64,000 bases of DNA from Syntrophus aciditrophicus SB (lineage in GTDB: Bacteria; Desulfobacterota; Syntrophia; Syntrophales; Syntrophaceae). Below, one piece after another: positions 16,441 through 26,051 of this stretch. The notes under the pieces are model-generated. The model saw only the letters and a list, made by a program, of their open reading frames with translations. It had not been told where the DNA came from and did not search any database. Within the stretch, counting starts at the first letter, position 1. Each line of letters opens with the position of its first letter. The DNA is taken from assembly GCF_000013405.1 (NCBI RefSeq), contig NC_007759.1:186001-250000 (forward strand). The letters run 5' to 3'. Made by a program: the position numbers and the translations under genes.

Positions 16441-17316
16441 ATGGAGTTGAAGGGAAGCAGGACCGAAGACGTTTTACGGAAAGCATTGAATGCGGAATTG
16501 CGTCAGAGTTTCGAATATCGCTACTTTGCCGGAATGGCGCGGCAGGCGGGTCTTCAGCAGGTTGCGGAGATTTTTGAGGCTACCGCAGCCAATGAACTGG
16601 AGCATGCCCGCCATGAATATGAATTTCTCGGAGGTGCAGGGAATTCGCTGGAAAATGTCCGGCAGGCCGTCAGCAATGAACACGATCAGGTTCTTAAATT
16701 CTACCCGCAGGCTGCGGAAACGGCCGAGCAGGAGGGGTTTACAGAGATTGCTGAATTCTTCCGACGGATTGTCGATGTCGAGGAAAAGCACGAGAAGAAT
16801 TTTCAGGAACTGCTGCATGGGATAGAAAAGGAGACTGAATTCGAAGGCCGAACCGTGGGACATTCCTCTGTGGAGATGGCGCAGTTGATGCTGCCGGAGC
16901 AGGCTAACCCGGCTGGATTCGTGCATGGCGGGGAATTGATGAAGATGATGGATAATGCGGCCGGGGTGGTGGCCGCCCGGCATGCGCATTCCAATGTCGT
17001 TACCGCCCGGGTGGAGGACATTGTCTTTCAGAGTCCGGTTCGCGTCGGCAGCGTGGTTTTCGTGAAAGCCAGACTCGTGTTTGCCAGCCGCTCCTCCATG
17101 GTCATCCGGGTCGACCTGGAGATGGAACATATCAGCCTGGAAAAGGGCCATGACGGCCAGGAACATAGAGTCCCCGCGATGACGGCAAATTTCGTGATGG
17201 TGGCCGTGGATGAACAGGGAAAGGCCAGTGCCGTTCCAAAACTGATCCTGCTTACGGAAGAAGAGGAAAGGCTCTTCGCCGCCGCAGAGGAGGGCTATAA
17301 AGCAAGAAAGAAATAG
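16441..17316 (+). CDS. Rubrerythrin-like diiron domain fused to acyl-CoA thioesterase (hotdog) domain
   Basis: 291 residues in two domains. Residues about 10-128 form a ferritin-like four-helix bundle with likely diiron ligands Glu19, E52-x-x-H55, Glu94/97 and E114-x-x-H117; the C-terminal rubredoxin domain of classical rubrerythrin is absent. Residues about 138-285 are an acyl-CoA hydrolase of the YciA/BACH hotdog type, with the motif NPAGFVHGGELMKMMDNAAG (Asn156 and Asp171 as probable catalytic pair). An AGGAGG site 7 bases upstream supports the start, and the joint is continuous in one frame. Rubrerythrins reduce peroxide; the thioesterase releases CoA from acyl-CoA. Why they are joined is unknown. 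Confidence 0.85.
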   Translation: MELKGSRTEDVLRKALNAELRQSFEYRYFAGMARQAGLQQVAEIFEATAANELEHARHEYEFLGGAGNSLENVRQAVSNEHDQVLKFYPQAAETAEQEGFTEIAEFFRRIVDVEEKHEKNFQELLHGIEKETEFEGRTVGHSSVEMAQLMLPEQANPAGFVHGGELMKMMDNAAGVVAARHAHSNVVTARVEDIVFQSPVRVGSVVFVKARLVFASRSSMVIRVDLEMEHISLEKGHDGQEHRVPAMTANFVMVAVDEQGKASAVPKLILLTEEEERLFAAAEEGYKARKK

Positions 17317-19375: not shown

Positions 19376-19407
19376 TTGTCAACCAGACCAAAAAACAAGG
19401 TTGACAA
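19376..19407 (+). promoter_or_regulatory. BirA-type biotin operator
   Basis: A perfect inverted repeat, TTGTCAACC-N14-GGTTGACAA. This matches the known bacterial BirA operator pattern (TTGTnAACC-N14/15-GGTTnACAA). The right arm contains the -35 hexamer of the bioA promoter, so bound biotinyl-AMP-BirA would block RNA polymerase. The site lies 122 bp upstream of bioA. Regulation by BirA is inferred from this match; the birA gene itself is not in the window. Confidence 0.88.
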
Positions 19408-19429: not shown

Positions 19430-19528
19430 GCTTCCGTTTTACCCCACCATAGTAAAGGGCTGAGGCCGGGCGATTCTCACGAAGGCGCGCAAATCTGAAA
19501 CTTTGGAAAAAGATTGGAGAAAAGGGCA

Positions 19529-20899
19529 ATGAACGGACAGGAAGAAAAAAAAAGGCAATTGGTCGCCGACGGTCTGAAATCCATCTGGTTTCCCTTCACC
19601 CAGATGCAGGAGTTTACCCCGGATGATGTACTGATCATCGCCGAGGGGAAAGGAGTTTTCCTTCGTGATGTGGACGGCAGGGATTACATCGATGGGGTTT
19701 CGTCTCTCTGGACCAATGTTCACGGCCATCGGAAGGAACAGATTGACCGGGCCATTCGGGAGCAACTGAATCGGGTCGCCCATTCCACCCTGCTCGGCTT
19801 GGCCCATGAACCCGCCATTGTCTGTGCGCGGAAACTGCTGGAGATCGTGCCGAAAGGGCTGACCCGGGTCTTTTACTCGGAAAGCGGCTCCACCGCTGTG
19901 GAAATCGCCTTGAAGATGGCCTTTCAGTATCAGCAGCAGGCAGCCGGAGGCGATCCCCGCAAAATCCGTTTCATGTCCCTGACCAACGCTTACCACGGCG
20001 ATACCCTGGGTTCGGTCAGTGCGGGCGGGATCGACCTGTTTCATGCCACCTACCGGGAACTTCTTTTTCCGACGGTCAAGGCCGCAGCGCCGTATTGCTA
20101 CCGATGTCCATTCGGAGCTTCCTATCCAGGCTGCCGGTTTGACTGCCTGAGTCAGCTGGAAAACCTGCTGGCAGCTCACGCCCATGAACTGGCGGCCCTG
20201 ATTATCGAACCCCTCGTTCAGGGGGCGGCTGGCATTCTGGTTCAGCCTCCCGGGTATCTGAAACGGGTTCGGGAGCTCTGCACGCGTTACGGGGTGCTGA
20301 TGATTGCCGATGAAGTGGCGGTAGGCTTCGGTAAGACAGGCAGGATGTTTGCCTGTGAACACGAAGACGTTGCCCCGGACATTCTGGCCCTGGGCAAGGG
20401 GCTGTCCGGAGGATATCTGCCCCTTGCGGCTACTGTGGCGACAGAAGAAATCTATAAGGGGTTTCTTGCCCGCTTCGACGAGTTCAAGACCTTTTTCCAC
20501 GGCCATACCTACACGGGGAATCCCCTGGCCTGCGCCGCCGCCATAGCGAATCTGGACGTCTTTGCCGAAGAGCGGGTCATCGAGGGATCAGGCGAAAAAA
20601 TTGAACGGCTGACCCAGGGGCTGACGCCGATTGCTTCCTTGAATCATGTGGGGGAGGTCCGTCAGCGGGGATTCATGGTCGGGATCGAACTCGTGGCGGA
20701 CAGGGAGACTAAGGCGCTGTATCCTCCAGCCGAACGAATCGGGCATAAAGTCATCCTGGAGGCGCGGAAACGGGGGCTGATTATCCGCCCGCTGGGAGAT
20801 GTGATTGTCCTTATGCCGCCTTTGTGCATCACGACAGAAGAAATCGATCGCCTTTGCGAAATCACGTATGAGTCCATCCGGGCCGTTGCGGGGGAATAG
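19529..20899 (+). CDS. bioA: Adenosylmethionine-8-amino-7-oxononanoate aminotransferase (DAPA synthase)
   Basis: About 456 residues from ATG 19529, which has GGAGAAAAGG upstream; an in-frame TTG at 19514 is less likely. It is a fold-type I PLP aminotransferase converting KAPA to DAPA using S-adenosylmethionine. BioA features are IWFPFTQMQEF, DVDGRDYIDGVSSLWTNVHGH, the PLP region YSESGSTAVEIALKMAFQY, LIIEPLVQGAAGI, the Asp in IADEVAVGFGKTGRMFACEH and the PLP lysine in LALGKGLSGGYLPLAA. It is the first gene of the operon; the next gene starts 5 bp after its stop. Confidence 0.95.
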   Translation: MNGQEEKKRQLVADGLKSIWFPFTQMQEFTPDDVLIIAEGKGVFLRDVDGRDYIDGVSSLWTNVHGHRKEQIDRAIREQLNRVAHSTLLGLAHEPAIVCARKLLEIVPKGLTRVFYSESGSTAVEIALKMAFQYQQQAAGGDPRKIRFMSLTNAYHGDTLGSVSAGGIDLFHATYRELLFPTVKAAAPYCYRCPFGASYPGCRFDCLSQLENLLAAHAHELAALIIEPLVQGAAGILVQPPGYLKRVRELCTRYGVLMIADEVAVGFGKTGRMFACEHEDVAPDILALGKGLSGGYLPLAATVATEEIYKGFLARFDEFKTFFHGHTYTGNPLACAAAIANLDVFAEERVIEGSGEKIERLTQGLTPIASLNHVGEVRQRGFMVGIELVADRETKALYPPAERIGHKVILEARKRGLIIRPLGDVIVLMPPLCITTEEIDRLCEITYESIRAVAGE

Positions 20900-20904
20900 G
20901 GAAA

Positions 20905-21270
20905 ATGCCGAAATCGCCGGACCGGGGGAAGGGGGAAGTCCCCGAGAAATCGGAAGATTCCGTTATCGTTTTCTCCGGGGTCTTTTATTTCGATCCCGCT
21001 GATCCGATCTATGCCGATCATTTTCCCGGCTGCCCCGTCGTGCCGGGCAGCCTGATTATTTCCGCCTTTCTGAAAGCCGTTCAGGCCGCCGGAGCCGGGA
21101 TAAGGCCCGGGAGAATTCGGGATTTCAAATTTCGAACCTTTCTCCCCCCGGGCGAATATGAATTCCGCATGGAAAATCGGGGAAATCACCTGCAATGCCG
21201 GCTCTTCCAGCCGGGGACCGACGGCCGTCAACCCCTGGTGACGGGCACGATCCTTTCCGCGTGTACCTGA
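20905..21270 (+). CDS. FabZ-like hotdog protein, His-bearing (candidate dehydratase subunit)
   Basis: 121 residues with one hotdog domain similar to 3-hydroxyacyl-ACP dehydratase FabZ. The active-site loop HFPGCPVVPGSLIISAFLKA aligns with the FabZ motif HFPGxPxxPGVLILEAMAQ. The catalytic His is kept, but the catalytic Glu is Ser and the following Gln is Lys. Alone it should therefore be impaired as a dehydratase. The downstream gene at 23763 has the opposite pattern. It sits between bioA and an ACP gene in the BirA-controlled operon, so a role in making the pimeloyl chain is inferred. The N-terminal 20 residues are charged and unordered-looking. Confidence 0.8.
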   Translation: MPKSPDRGKGEVPEKSEDSVIVFSGVFYFDPADPIYADHFPGCPVVPGSLIISAFLKAVQAAGAGIRPGRIRDFKFRTFLPPGEYEFRMENRGNHLQCRLFQPGTDGRQPLVTGTILSACT

Positions 21271-21404
21271 CCCCTTGCATTCGAAGGGGCAACAGGGAGG
21301 CAGGCAGGACGCGAATCAGTCGGATGATGCGGTGTCTGGGAAAAGATGACCAGGCCGTCGGCACAGTAACCCCAGTTAAGGAAATTGGATAAGAAAGGAG
21401 TTTC

Positions 21405-21773
21405 ATGGACCTGTTGACCGAAATTTCAGCGATTCTCGTTGAAACCCTTGATCTGGAAGAGAAGGAAATAACCGGAGAATCGCGACTCCGGAAAGATCTG
21501 GACATCGAATCGATCGATATGCTGGAACTGGCCCTTTCCTTCAGTTCCCGGTTCGGGATTGAAGTGGAAGAGGACGAGATCTTTCTCCAGAAGGTTCCCC
21601 TCCTGATCGCCGAGGCCGAACAGGAAGGCCGGGAGGCTGCCGCCGTTCTCGCTGACCGTTTTCCCTTCCTCGCCGGTGAAAGAATCCGCGAAATCCTTTC
21701 CGGAGGGCAGGCCGATCCGAAAGTTCAGGATCTCGTCGACTACATCGCCTGGCGGCTTTCGAGGGCATCCTGA
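21405..21773 (+). CDS. Acyl carrier protein of the biotin operon
   Basis: 122 residues; AAGGAG precedes the ATG. Residues 1 to about 80 resemble ACP, with the phosphopantetheine serine in KDLDIESIDMLELALSFSS, an acidic GIEVEEDEIF segment and a helical end. The C-terminal 40 residues (ADRFPFLAGERIREILSGG and on) extend beyond the normal ACP length. It differs clearly from the housekeeping AcpP at 13 kb. Placement between bioA and bioF suggests a dedicated carrier for pimelate synthesis. The following gene starts 4 bp after its stop. Confidence 0.85.
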   Translation: MDLLTEISAILVETLDLEEKEITGESRLRKDLDIESIDMLELALSFSSRFGIEVEEDEIFLQKVPLLIAEAEQEGREAAAVLADRFPFLAGERIREILSGGQADPKVQDLVDYIAWRLSRAS

Positions 21774-21777
21774 CCCC

Positions 21778-22410
21778 GTGTCGGCGCTGGATTCCCTGAT
21801 ATACGGCCGGCGGAGCATCCGGAAATACAAGCGGGAAGTGCCCCCGCCGGGAATGATCGATTCGATGGTTTGCTGCGCCCTGCAGGCGCCTTCCCCCGCC
21901 AACCGCCAGCCTGTCCGTTTCTTCCGTTTCTGCCGTCCCGAAACTCTGGAAACACTGAAAATTGCCATGGAAGAGGGCTGCCAAGCCCGGCTTGCCGCCG
22001 CGGAAGAAAAAGGGGCGTCGGAGATCCTGAAGAATATCATCGTCAATTATCACCGGTTTCTGCTGTTCATGTTCGATGCGCCACTGCTCTTTGCCGTGGG
22101 CACCGTCCCCGCGCAGCGGAGCGTCGCCGAAAGGCTCGCTTCGTCGGGAATTACGGCGCGGCGCGGACGAACTGCTTCGGACGACGATCTCAGCGTGGGG
22201 ATGGCTGTGATGGAATGGATGCTCAAGGGGGAGGAACTGGGTCTTGGCTCATGCATCCTGACCGCTCCACTTCTCTACCTGGATCGCCCGGAAGAAATCC
22301 TGGGCATCTCGCCGGTGACGATCAAATGCTTCCTGACGCTGGGGTTTCCCGATGAAACGCCTGCTCCCCGCAAGAAAAAGAGCGTTTCCGATATCTATCG
22401 GGAACTGTGA
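21778..22410 (+). CDS. Nitroreductase-family FMN oxidoreductase of the biotin operon
   Basis: About 210 residues from GTG 21778, four bases after the ACP stop; the frame extends upstream through ACP coding sequence, which is not credible. Family features are LIYGRRSIRKYKREVPPP (FMN phosphate contacts), ALQAPSPANRQPVRFF and a C-terminal LGLGSCILTAPLLYL, then FLTLGFPDE. These enzymes reduce or oxidise substrates with FMN and NAD(P)H. In this operon a role as enoyl-thioester reductase or as another redox step of chain building is inference only. Its end overlaps the next gene by 4 bp. Confidence 0.8.
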   Translation: MSALDSLIYGRRSIRKYKREVPPPGMIDSMVCCALQAPSPANRQPVRFFRFCRPETLETLKIAMEEGCQARLAAAEEKGASEILKNIIVNYHRFLLFMFDAPLLFAVGTVPAQRSVAERLASSGITARRGRTASDDDLSVGMAVMEWMLKGEELGLGSCILTAPLLYLDRPEEILGISPVTIKCFLTLGFPDETPAPRKKKSVSDIYREL

Positions 22411-23645
22411 AAGGTCTCGCGAATCCGATGTCAACTTTCCGACGGGTCGTCATAACCGCCCTGGGGGTGATTTCCCCGCTGGGAAATTCCGCTGAACAGA
22501 TCATGACCTCTCTGCGCAGCGGCCGGGTGTCCTTTGCCGCATCGGCCTCTGATCCCCAGGTGATTGTTGCTCCCGTTCGGGATTTTGAACTGGGGGCTTT
22601 TACCGGTTCCTTCAAGGAGCGCCGTTATCTCAACCGGGGTGCCCAGTTCACTGTCGCCGCGGCGATGGCCGCCGTCGGAAACGCCTCCCTCCGCAGGGAA
22701 CAAATCACTGGGGCGGGTCTCTTTCTCGGCGCCGGCCCCAATATGGACATGGGGGGCGAAATTCCGGAAATCCGGCAGGGGGAAATCCAGCACGATACCC
22801 TGATGGCCCTCTGGATTCTCCGCTTCCTGCCGAACACGGCCGCCTCGGTCATTTCCATCCTTGCGGGAATCCGGGGAGATAACCTGACCGTCACCTCCGC
22901 CTGTTCCTCTTCCCTGCAGGCGATCGGCGAGGCCTTCCACAAAATACGGGACGGGTATCTCGATCTCGCCTTAGCCGGAGGCGGCGATTCCCGCCTGACG
23001 CCGGGAGCGATCCTGGCCTACCGCAAAGCGCGGGCCCTGTATGAAGGCGGCGGAAATCCCGGGGAAGCCAGTCGCCCCTTCGACAACGGAAGACGGGGAT
23101 TTGTCCCTGGAGAAGGCGGGGCTGTCCTGCTTCTGGAAGAACTGGAGCACGCCCGGAGCCGGGGTGCGGCGATTATCGGGGAAGTCCGCGGTTTCGGCGC
23201 CTCCCTGGACGGATACAATGTAACGGCGCCGGAGCCGGAGGGCCGGGGCGGTCAAATGGCCCTGGAGAAGGCGCTGGCGGATGCCGGTCTTGTTCCGGGA
23301 GACGTCGATGTCGTTTCCACCCACGGGACGGGGACCCTTCTCAACGACCGCATGGAGGCCGCCCTGATCGAACGGGTTTATGCAGATCAATTGCCCCGGA
23401 TACTGGCCTTCAAGTCCTGGATCGGACACCTGTCGACGGCCTGCGGGGCGATGGAAACGGCGCTCAGCATCATCTGCATGCAGAATGATTACCTGCCGGA
23501 AATCCGCAATCTCCGGGATGCCTGTTCTCCCGTAATTCCTTTCGTGCGGGAAGGCGGAAAGCGGTCCACATCCACCTGGGTCATCGAAAACTTCGGCTTC
23601 GGCGGGCAGAATGCGGTCCTGATTGTGAAACGTTATGCCCCCTGA
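22407..23645 (+). CDS. Beta-ketoacyl-ACP synthase (KAS II-like) of the biotin operon
   Basis: 412 residues from GTG 22407, overlapping the previous stop by 4 bp; ATG 22428 (MSTFRRVVITALGVISPLG) is an alternative. It is a thiolase-fold condensing enzyme with an intact triad: Cys in VTSACSSSLQAIGEAF, His in VSTHGTGTLLND, His in FKSWIGHLSTACGAMET. The C-terminal NFGFGGQNAVLIVKRY is typical. It is divergent from FabF at 11.6 kb, with a shorter middle (MDMGGEIPEIRQGEIQ). It probably elongates the dioic-acid chain on the operon's own ACP. Such a start would remove the need for BioC/BioH; that is inference. Confidence 0.88.
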   Translation: MKGLANPMSTFRRVVITALGVISPLGNSAEQIMTSLRSGRVSFAASASDPQVIVAPVRDFELGAFTGSFKERRYLNRGAQFTVAAAMAAVGNASLRREQITGAGLFLGAGPNMDMGGEIPEIRQGEIQHDTLMALWILRFLPNTAASVISILAGIRGDNLTVTSACSSSLQAIGEAFHKIRDGYLDLALAGGGDSRLTPGAILAYRKARALYEGGGNPGEASRPFDNGRRGFVPGEGGAVLLLEELEHARSRGAAIIGEVRGFGASLDGYNVTAPEPEGRGGQMALEKALADAGLVPGDVDVVSTHGTGTLLNDRMEAALIERVYADQLPRILAFKSWIGHLSTACGAMETALSIICMQNDYLPEIRNLRDACSPVIPFVREGGKRSTSTWVIENFGFGGQNAVLIVKRYAP

Positions 23646-23762
23646 AAGACGAAAACGAATGCTTCTATCCGATGCAGGCCTGTTTCGCTTCCCCTTCGCG
23701 GCCTTGAACATGTCCGTGATCTGGAATCGGAATAAAATAAAGATGTGGAAGGAGAGTCGAGT

Positions 23763-24212
23763 TTGCTGAAATCGATCCCCGGAATGACCATTGCCACAGG
23801 TCTGAGCGGATTTTCGCTTCTTGCCCGCATTACGGAAAGCACCAAAGAGCGGGTCGCTGCCCTGGCCGATCTCGCTGACGCTCCGCAATTTATCGGGTTG
23901 GAAGCGCTGGCTCAGGCGGGGGCTTATCACGTCCGTTTCCTGTGCGAATTCGAAAGGCAGGCCGTCCTCCTCATGATCCGGAACGGTCGTTTGCCTGAGG
24001 AGGAAATGCTGAACGGCCGCTATGAAATTTCAGGGACTCTGCGCAGCAGGAGCGCCTCCGTTTTCGCCTATGAGATGTCGGCGGTGAAGAGCGGCAAAGC
24101 GGTTATCGAAGGGGAATTCGTCTTTGCGGCGGTTGCCTACGATTCAAACCTGCGGGAAGAAATCCTCAAAAAACATTACGAGAAAAAATGGGCGGATTTA
24201 CGAAACGGTTGA
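23763..24212 (+). CDS. FabZ-like hotdog protein, Glu-bearing (candidate dehydratase subunit)
   Basis: About 149 residues from TTG 23763, chosen because AAGGAG lies 8 bases upstream; a GTG at 23745 is possible. A hotdog domain is seen: FIGLEALAQAGAYHVRF matches the FabZ central helix LEAMAQATG and keeps the catalytic Glu. The strand pattern LNGRYEISGTLRSRSASVFA, then GKAVIEGEFVFAAV, also matches FabZ. At the position of the FabZ catalytic His (14 residues before the Glu) there is Ala, and the HFPG loop is missing. This is the mirror image of the protein at 20905. Its 3' end overlaps bioF by 25 bp. Confidence 0.75.
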   Translation: MLKSIPGMTIATGLSGFSLLARITESTKERVAALADLADAPQFIGLEALAQAGAYHVRFLCEFERQAVLLMIRNGRLPEEEMLNGRYEISGTLRSRSASVFAYEMSAVKSGKAVIEGEFVFAAVAYDSNLREEILKKHYEKKWADLRNG

Positions 24213-25351
24213 AAACACAATTGAAGCTCCACCGGCAGGCCGGTCTCTACCGGCAGCCGCCGGAAATCCTCGGCCGGGAGGGTGCTTCCCTTCACCTGGC
24301 CGAGGGCCGGGTCCTCAATTTCGCCTCCAACGACTATCTGGGACTAGGGGCGTCGGAGGTCCTGCGGAAACAGGTTGCCCGCAACTTTTGTAAATACGGT
24401 TCTTCTTCCTCTTCATCCCGCCTCGTCTCCGGCCATTATGCCCTGATTGCCGAAGCTGAAAGGGCATACGCCCGCTATTTCGGCTATGAGGAGGCTCTCT
24501 TCTTTCCCAGCGGCTATCAGGCCAACCTTGCCCTGCTGTCCACTCTCTTCGATTCCGGAACGACGCTCTTTTTTGACAAGCATATCCATGCCAGCAGCGT
24601 CAAGGGTATGGCCCTCAGTTCCGCAGAACTTGTGGGCTACAATCACAGTTCCCTGACCCACCTTGAAAAACGCCTGAAAAAAGCGGAAACAAGGGAGACC
24701 GTCGTCCTGACGGAATCCCTTTTCAGCATGGACGGCGACCTGCTGAATGTCTCCGGCCTGGCCGATCTCAAGGAGCATTACGGGTTTCTCTGCATTGTCG
24801 ATGAAGCCCACGCCCTGGGCGTTCTGGGGGAGAGGGGAATCGGCGTTGCCCTGCCGGTTGCCGACATCGCCGTGGGGACCTTTGGAAAGGCCTTGGGACT
24901 CTTCGGAGCATTTCTTCTTATTCCGGCCCTGGTCAAGGAGTATCTCTTCAACTTCGCTTCCCCCCTCATCTACTCCACCACCCTTCCCGAGGCGCACGCA
25001 GCCTCGGCCATCGACATCCTGACCCTGTTGGGCGATAGCGACGAGTCCAGAAGGCATCTCCGGGAAATCAGCTCCCTCATGAAAAACCGTCTGTATGCAG
25101 AGGGTTTTTCCGTGCAGGGGGACGCCCATATCCTGGCTGTGGAAATCGGGCGGGAACAGAAGGCGCTGGAGATTTCAAACCGGCTTCGGAAAAAGGGAAT
25201 ATTCGTTTTGTCGGCACGCTATCCCACCGTTCCCCTGGGAAGAGCCATCCTGAGGATTGGAATGACGGCCCTGCACGGGGAGGAGGACGTCAATCACTTT
25301 ATTTTGTCCCTGAAGGAGGTTATGAAAGAATATGAAAACGGAAATTCCTGA
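24188..25351 (+). CDS. bioF: 8-amino-7-oxononanoate synthase
   Basis: 387 residues, an alpha-oxoamine synthase joining pimeloyl-ACP (or -CoA) with alanine to give KAPA. Motifs: LNFASNDYLGLGASEVLRKQ, SSRLVSGHYALIAEAERAYA, FFDKHIHASSVKGM, TESLFSMDGDLLNVSGL, CIVDEAHALGVLGERG and the PLP lysine in VGTFGKALGLFGAF. Its start lies inside the preceding gene, so translation is probably coupled. It overlaps bioD by 20 bp. Distinguishing it from glycine C-acetyltransferase relies on the operon context. Confidence 0.93.
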   Translation: MGGFTKRLKTQLKLHRQAGLYRQPPEILGREGASLHLAEGRVLNFASNDYLGLGASEVLRKQVARNFCKYGSSSSSSRLVSGHYALIAEAERAYARYFGYEEALFFPSGYQANLALLSTLFDSGTTLFFDKHIHASSVKGMALSSAELVGYNHSSLTHLEKRLKKAETRETVVLTESLFSMDGDLLNVSGLADLKEHYGFLCIVDEAHALGVLGERGIGVALPVADIAVGTFGKALGLFGAFLLIPALVKEYLFNFASPLIYSTTLPEAHAASAIDILTLLGDSDESRRHLREISSLMKNRLYAEGFSVQGDAHILAVEIGREQKALEISNRLRKKGIFVLSARYPTVPLGRAILRIGMTALHGEEDVNHFILSLKEVMKEYENGNS

Positions 25352-26051
25352 CATCTATGTGATAGGCACGGATACAGGGGTCGGAAAGACCGTCCTGTCG
25401 TTCCTGTTGATGCGCTACTTCTTCGATCGGGGGGCTGTCCCCTTTTATTTCAAACCTGTGCAGACGGGGTGCCGTCATCCTTACGATACGGATTCCGATG
25501 CGAAATTCATTTATGAGAATATTCCGGAATTGAGCGGTAAGGATCCAGCCTGCTCCGTCGGATTCTGCTATCGAAATCCCAAGGCTCCTTTCTTTGCCGC
25601 GCGCAATGAAGGTCGCCAGGTCGACTGGCAGCGGATACTCGAAACTCTGGACGAAAAAAGAGCCCGTTTTGCGCCGCTGATTGTCGAAGCTGCCGGGGGC
25701 GTCTTCGTACCCATTGACGGAGAAAAGCTGGTTATTGACACGATTCCGCCCACCGGCGCCCGCCCCCTGATTGCCGCCAGGGCCGGGTTGGGGACCATCA
25801 ATCACACCCTGTTGACGATTGCCGCCCTGGAACAGAGAAACATCGAACCCCTCGGAGTCATTCTTCTGGATGGAGGCGAGGTGGAAACGCCGCGGGACAT
25901 GATTCTGGAGAATATCGAAGCGATAGAACGGCATTCCGGCCTGCGGGTTGCCGGTGTCGTGGGCCGGATCGCCGATTTTCAACATCTTCCTGCCGACTGT
26001 TTTAAGGGTTTGCAAATCCTGTTTGAAGGCAGGATGGGAGAACATCAGTGA
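25332..26051 (+). CDS. bioD: Dethiobiotin synthetase
   Basis: 239 residues, starting inside bioF. The P-loop is GTDTGVGKTVLS, followed by FYFKPVQTGC with the catalytic Lys of BioD and VEAAGGVFVPI, the switch region. It carboxylates DAPA to dethiobiotin using CO2 and ATP. It closes the operon; bioB is not in the window. A gene on the opposite strand ends 10 bp beyond its stop (tail-to-tail). Confidence 0.95.
   Translation: MKTEIPDIYVIGTDTGVGKTVLSFLLMRYFFDRGAVPFYFKPVQTGCRHPYDTDSDAKFIYENIPELSGKDPACSVGFCYRNPKAPFFAARNEGRQVDWQRILETLDEKRARFAPLIVEAAGGVFVPIDGEKLVIDTIPPTGARPLIAARAGLGTINHTLLTIAALEQRNIEPLGVILLDGGEVETPRDMILENIEAIERHSGLRVAGVVGRIADFQHLPADCFKGLQILFEGRMGEHQ

Follow-up and report, generated by a model that had tools for sequence, protein, structure and literature searches.

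Two FabZ-like proteins encoded in a biotin operon of Syntrophus aciditrophicus SB, designated here as Z1 and Z2, most likely form an obligate heterodimeric dehydratase with a single active site that serves biotin synthesis. The genes were analyzed within a window of 64,000 nucleotides that corresponds to positions 186001-250000 of a single-contig genome of 3,179,300 bases, and unless another locus is named, gene and codon coordinates are those of the window. Taken together, the sequences, the operon, the BirA (biotin repressor) box, the conservation of key residues, the co-occurrence of the two genes and the folds of the monomers make this the most likely account of the complex, its activity and its substrates. 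In the proposed enzyme, Z1 would supply the catalytic His39 while Z2 would supply Glu47, Gln51 and the wall of the acyl tunnel. Dedicated to the formation of pimeloyl-ACP for biotin, this 3-hydroxyacyl-ACP dehydratase would act on 3-hydroxyglutaryl-ACP (C5) and 3-hydroxypimeloyl-ACP (C7) with their terminal carboxylates free, and Arg58 of Z2, at the bottom of the tunnel, would be the likely carboxylate anchor. A split dehydratase of this kind would explain why the cluster has retained two FabZ-like genes, and it would mean that heterodimeric dehydratases with one site, known from pigment synthesis, also serve the synthesis of a vitamin.

The genes are arranged on the + strand as bioA-Z1-ACP-nitroreductase-KS-Z2-bioF-bioD to form a dense operon. 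It begins with bioA (19514..20899; TIGR00508, 546 bits, above cut-off) and continues with Z1, the His subunit (20905..21270; ATG start, PF07977 above cut-off), a dedicated acyl carrier protein (ACP; 21405..21773; PF00550 above cut-off), a nitroreductase-like protein (21778..22410; PF00881, E=4e-24) and a FabF-like beta-ketoacyl-ACP synthase (KS; 22407..23645; ketoacyl-synt Pfam domains, with TIGR03150 at 296 bits and under its curated cut-off). Z2, the Glu subunit, follows (23763..24212; TTG start with AAGGAG just upstream), then bioF (24188..25351; TIGR00858 at 325 bits, under the curated cut-off) and bioD (25332..26051; TIGR00347 at 121 bits, above cut-off). An earlier note on this DNA, whose proposal of an obligate two-subunit dehydratase is supported by the present analysis, had assigned Z1 and Z2 to one operon, and the tight packing on one strand bears this out: Z1 starts 5 bp past the end of bioA, and Z2 overlaps bioF by 25 bp. 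Approximately 107 bases upstream of bioA, at 19376..19407 on the + strand, is a BirA operator, TTGTCAACC-N14-GGTTGACAA, that matches the published consensus perfectly (PMC545781). It is the sole match in the window, where 0.16 would be expected at three or fewer mismatches. The same operon is present in three genomes of the same genus. A FabG-like reductase gene occupies the interval between Z1 and ACP in most related clusters, whereas in this window the gap is only 134 bp (21271-21404) and holds no such gene; FabG is also missing from this place in the three same-genus genomes and at two further loci (L033 and L039). Without a FabG in the operon, the ketoreductase must come from elsewhere. 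The window contains a further hotdog domain at 16441-17316, in a protein that combines a rubrerythrin-like domain with a 4HBT hotdog thioesterase domain in a single chain.

The operon is a Desulfovibrio-type biotin cluster, and its pathway is known. Pimeloyl synthesis for biotin by the Desulfovibrio cluster was predicted in 2004 (PMC545781) and supported in 2023 by transposon fitness data for Desulfovibrio vulgaris. Those data identified ten genes specifically important without biotin, nine of which belong to the cluster DVU2558-DVU2565, and all nine clustered genes are reported as needed without biotin (PMC10102598), although transposon phenotypes within an operon can be polar. The same report names DVU2560 and DORF42491 as the two FabZ-like genes of the cluster, notes comparable clusters with a nitroreductase gene from other orders, and proposes the nitroreductase as the candidate enoyl-ACP reductase of the pathway. 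Catalytic residues are not discussed in the available text of PMC10102598, and complementarity of the residues is unmentioned in the available text of either paper. The window resembles the Desulfovibrio-type cluster in having bioA, bioF and bioD flanking the ACP, the KS and two FabZ-like genes, in its regulation by BirA, and in the genome, searched for BioC alone, having no BioC match above cut-off. Some Desulfovibrio-type clusters also carry the nitroreductase. The window differs in that FabG, present in the Desulfovibrio-type cluster, is absent from the operon and that bioB lies outside it.

The motif region of Z1 reads HFPGCPVVPGSLIISAFLKA / HFPGCPVVPGSLIISAFLK and contains His39 (codon 21019..21021, + strand), Ser53 where FabZ has its catalytic Glu (codon 21061..21063, + strand) and Lys57 at the position of the Gln. 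The translated open reading frame agrees with the earlier description of Z1 as a protein that retains the His and has Ser in place of Glu and Lys in place of Gln. In a profile alignment, Z1 begins after the N-terminal tunnel segment of FabZ, LPHRYPFLLVD, which it lacks. In Helicobacter pylori FabZ, this segment forms the acyl-pocket wall on the side where the Glu of its own subunit lies, and the pocket residues are Ile20, Leu21, Pro22, His23, Gly79 and Phe83 (PMC2692856). Against the FabZ model TIGR01750, Z1 scores 19.8 bits where the curated cut-off is 155, and it has a weak match to PKS_DH_N. The AF2 monomer (pLDDT 88) adopts a hotdog fold whose top VIA structural match is 6qsr_A, or ApeI (Z 12.6 over 97 residues, rmsd 2.3), with FabZ chains close behind at Z 11.8. 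In one Syntrophobacteraceae MAG (L153, 4182-4415), the Z1 frame has a single in-frame TAG ahead of the His motif.

Z2 carries the other half of the dyad. Its motif GLEALAQAG includes Glu47 (codon 23901..23903, + strand) and Gln51, and the claim that Z2 keeps the Glu is thereby upheld by the translation. The companion claim, that Ala stands in Z2 where the His belongs, was rejected in favor of a deletion: alignment with the FabZ profile leaves a 14-residue gap (11+3) in which the entire HFPGxPVMPG loop between strand and helix is gone. No Pfam or NCBIfam model matches Z2, TIGR01750 included; the profile match to FabZ has E=4e-13. Its AF2 monomer (pLDDT 90) is also a hotdog fold, for which the best VIA structural match is FabZ (Z 15.4), with 6qsr_B, or ApeP, ranked below it (Z 13.7). 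Each of the two profiles matches FabZ, yet between Z1 and Z2 there is no profile match (E=0.06), as expected if the two proteins have kept complementary parts.

To assess conservation, clusters were gathered within the order, more widely in the phylum, and in two additional families; the named ones come from GTDB species, and the named loci include one Syntrophus sp. MAG. The Z1 His is invariant (31/31 sequences). Among the Z2 orthologues, a sample that diverges to 16% identity, Glu is found in 36/36 and Gln in 35/36, and the aligned His loop is present in 0/36. Neither subunit alone has the same-chain dyad of FabZ, Z1 having the His only and Z2 the Glu only. As read from these alignments, each subunit has lost parts that a second half-site would need, namely the His loop in Z2 and the Glu, the Gln and the N-terminal tunnel segment in Z1; the second half-site would then be dead. 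The vacated Glu position is variable in Z1, with His in ten of the 31 sequences, Gln in seven, Ser in four, Glu in four, Asp in three, and Asn, Tyr and Ala in one each; additional Ala, Arg and Gly residues occur at other loci outside this count. The earlier note proposed checking the conservation of the two residues across orthologues, and the Z1 His and the Z2 Glu hold up in this check. One of its refuting observations, a partner that has both residues by itself, does turn up in part: 7/31 Z1s carry Glu or Asp in the vacated place, and exact complementarity is not universal. This counts against the heterodimer, as Z1 homodimers in the lineages of those seven might in theory be active. The acidic residues are nonetheless more readily read as drift in a site no longer used than as a sign of active homodimers because they are scattered over the tree, ApeI has an Asp there too, and the Z2 Glu is also invariant in the clusters whose Z1 has Glu or Asp. 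Control FabZ proteins of the same phylum have the Glu in 20/20 cases, but the selection motif itself requires Glu; in a looser list based on the HFP motif, also from the same phylum, Glu is found in 21 of the 23 proteins other than Z1 orthologues.

The arrangement bioA-Z1-(FabG)-ACP-(NTR)-KS-Z2-bioF-bioD recurs within the taxonomic order to which the window belongs, in further orders of the same phylum, and in the family that includes one further genome (G257), taken to be Desulfovibrionaceae. Across 394 genomes of the phylum, eight carry a strong Z2. Seven of these make up the full set of strong Z1 carriers, and the cluster of the remaining one includes a diverged Z1. An operon without Z1 from Desulfobacteraceae (L148, 3500-3800) was rejected as a counter-example, since that genome encodes Z1 on a different contig (L161). 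The Z1 found there retains the catalytic His and has another His where the Glu would be. One genome, G424, is an exception in having Z1 without Z2 (L092, 2274-4552): bioA, Z1 and FabG are present, the KS is truncated and no ACP adjoins, and the cluster is decayed or misassembled. No natural Z1-Z2 fusion was noticed among the loci read, and no relatives of Z1 or Z2 were found in the viral contigs searched. The GC-rich clusters of the G257 family show long open frames around Z2, but for the most part these are stop-free frames that overlap.

The principle of a heterodimeric dehydratase with one site is already known from ApeI:ApeP (PDB 6QSR), a precedent that the earlier note missed, as it did the known biotin pathway. 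In aryl polyene clusters, ApeI and ApeP have been described as 'heterodimeric dehydratases with a single active site' (PMC8041823), and the E. coli ApeI and ApeP sequences match the two chains of 6QSR. Like the proposed Z1:Z2, this pair consists of two FabZ-like hotdog subunits with one active site per heterodimer. ApeI resembles Z1 in retaining the His without the N-terminal LPHxYPFLLVD segment, and ApeP resembles Z2 in having ExxAQ but no His. The differences lie in the pathway, which is that of an aryl polyene pigment for ApeI:ApeP and of biotin for Z1:Z2, and in the residues: ApeI has Asp at the Glu position where Z1 of the window has Ser, and ApeP lost its His by substitution whereas Z2 lost it by loop deletion. 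In trees, ApeI and ApeP fall outside the Z1 and Z2 groups on very long branches, hinting at separate origins for the two pairs. The dehydratase domains of polyketide synthases offer a second comparison as double hotdogs in which the His of the N-terminal hotdog and the acid of the C-terminal hotdog make up one site; these are a single fused chain, whereas Z1 and Z2 are two genes. Homodimeric FabZ and FabA share the hotdog fold and a site built from the His of one subunit and the Glu of the other (PMC2692856), but every FabZ chain carries both residues and the dimer has two sites.

Several other arrangements could be drawn from the same genes. Z1 might be the dehydratase by itself, as a homodimer using the His only or a replacement residue, in which case Z2 would be a hotdog enzyme in its own right, for example a thioesterase that relies on the Glu of its helix. 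Structurally, the Z2 model is almost as close to hotdog thioesterases (Z ~13) as to FabZ, and Glu or Asp does appear at the vacant position of some Z1s; most Z1s, however, have no acid there, and Z1 is without the N-terminal tunnel segment. This division of labor is also made unlikely by the FabZ-type ExxxQ motif kept in 35/36 Z2s, by the co-occurrence of the two genes, and by the expectation that a thioesterase would destroy the acyl-ACP needed by BioF. More doubtful still is a model in which neither Z1 nor Z2 is active and each joins a housekeeping FabA or FabZ as a scaffold or specificity subunit. Other FabA/FabZ-type genes with a complete dyad do exist near 2,998-3,000 kb of the genome, but under such an arrangement the Z1 His and the Z2 Glu would have no need of invariance, and the Z1 and Z2 genes accompany each other, not a housekeeping gene.

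The remaining alternative accepts the Z1:Z2 complex and assigns it another hotdog reaction on the pathway, for example double-bond isomerisation or decarboxylation, the latter having a precedent in hotdog relatives with the FabZ His that can decarboxylate (AmcE, PMC10698177). It appears highly improbable given that the elongation of malonyl-ACP to pimeloyl-ACP requires a dehydratase and that the cluster holds no other candidate (PMC10102598).

Within the heterodimeric dehydratase, the new element is an invariant arginine of Z2 at a position that, by sequence comparison, falls at the bottom of the FabZ tunnel, which makes it a candidate carboxylate anchor. Arg58 (codon 23934..23936, + strand) lies eleven residues after the catalytic Glu and is Arg in 36/36 Z2s, compared with F, L, Y, G or I in the 20 control FabZ proteins. 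By numbering, it corresponds to Phe83 of H. pylori FabZ (Glu72+11), a residue of the hydrophobic pocket in which the ring of an inhibitor extends to the bottom of the tunnel (PMC2692856). With a C5 or C7 chain in place, Arg58 could bind the free omega-carboxylate. We tentatively suggest, with somewhat less than even confidence, that Z1:Z2 is a dehydratase rebuilt for free diacids in which this arginine replaces the hydrophobic residue at the tunnel bottom and binds the omega-carboxylate. If true, these anaerobes could make pimeloyl-ACP without the methyl-ester disguise of BioC and BioH. Such a role would answer a question that comes from PMC10102598, namely how the pathway avoids methyl esters; for the passage of charged C5 and C7 diacids through fatty-acid-type enzymes in this BioC-independent pathway, that paper offers only less hydrophobic sites as a suggestion. 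The combination of a split dehydratase with an invariant tunnel arginine makes diacid handling mutationally testable. At the position of Arg58, E. coli ApeP has a Gly.
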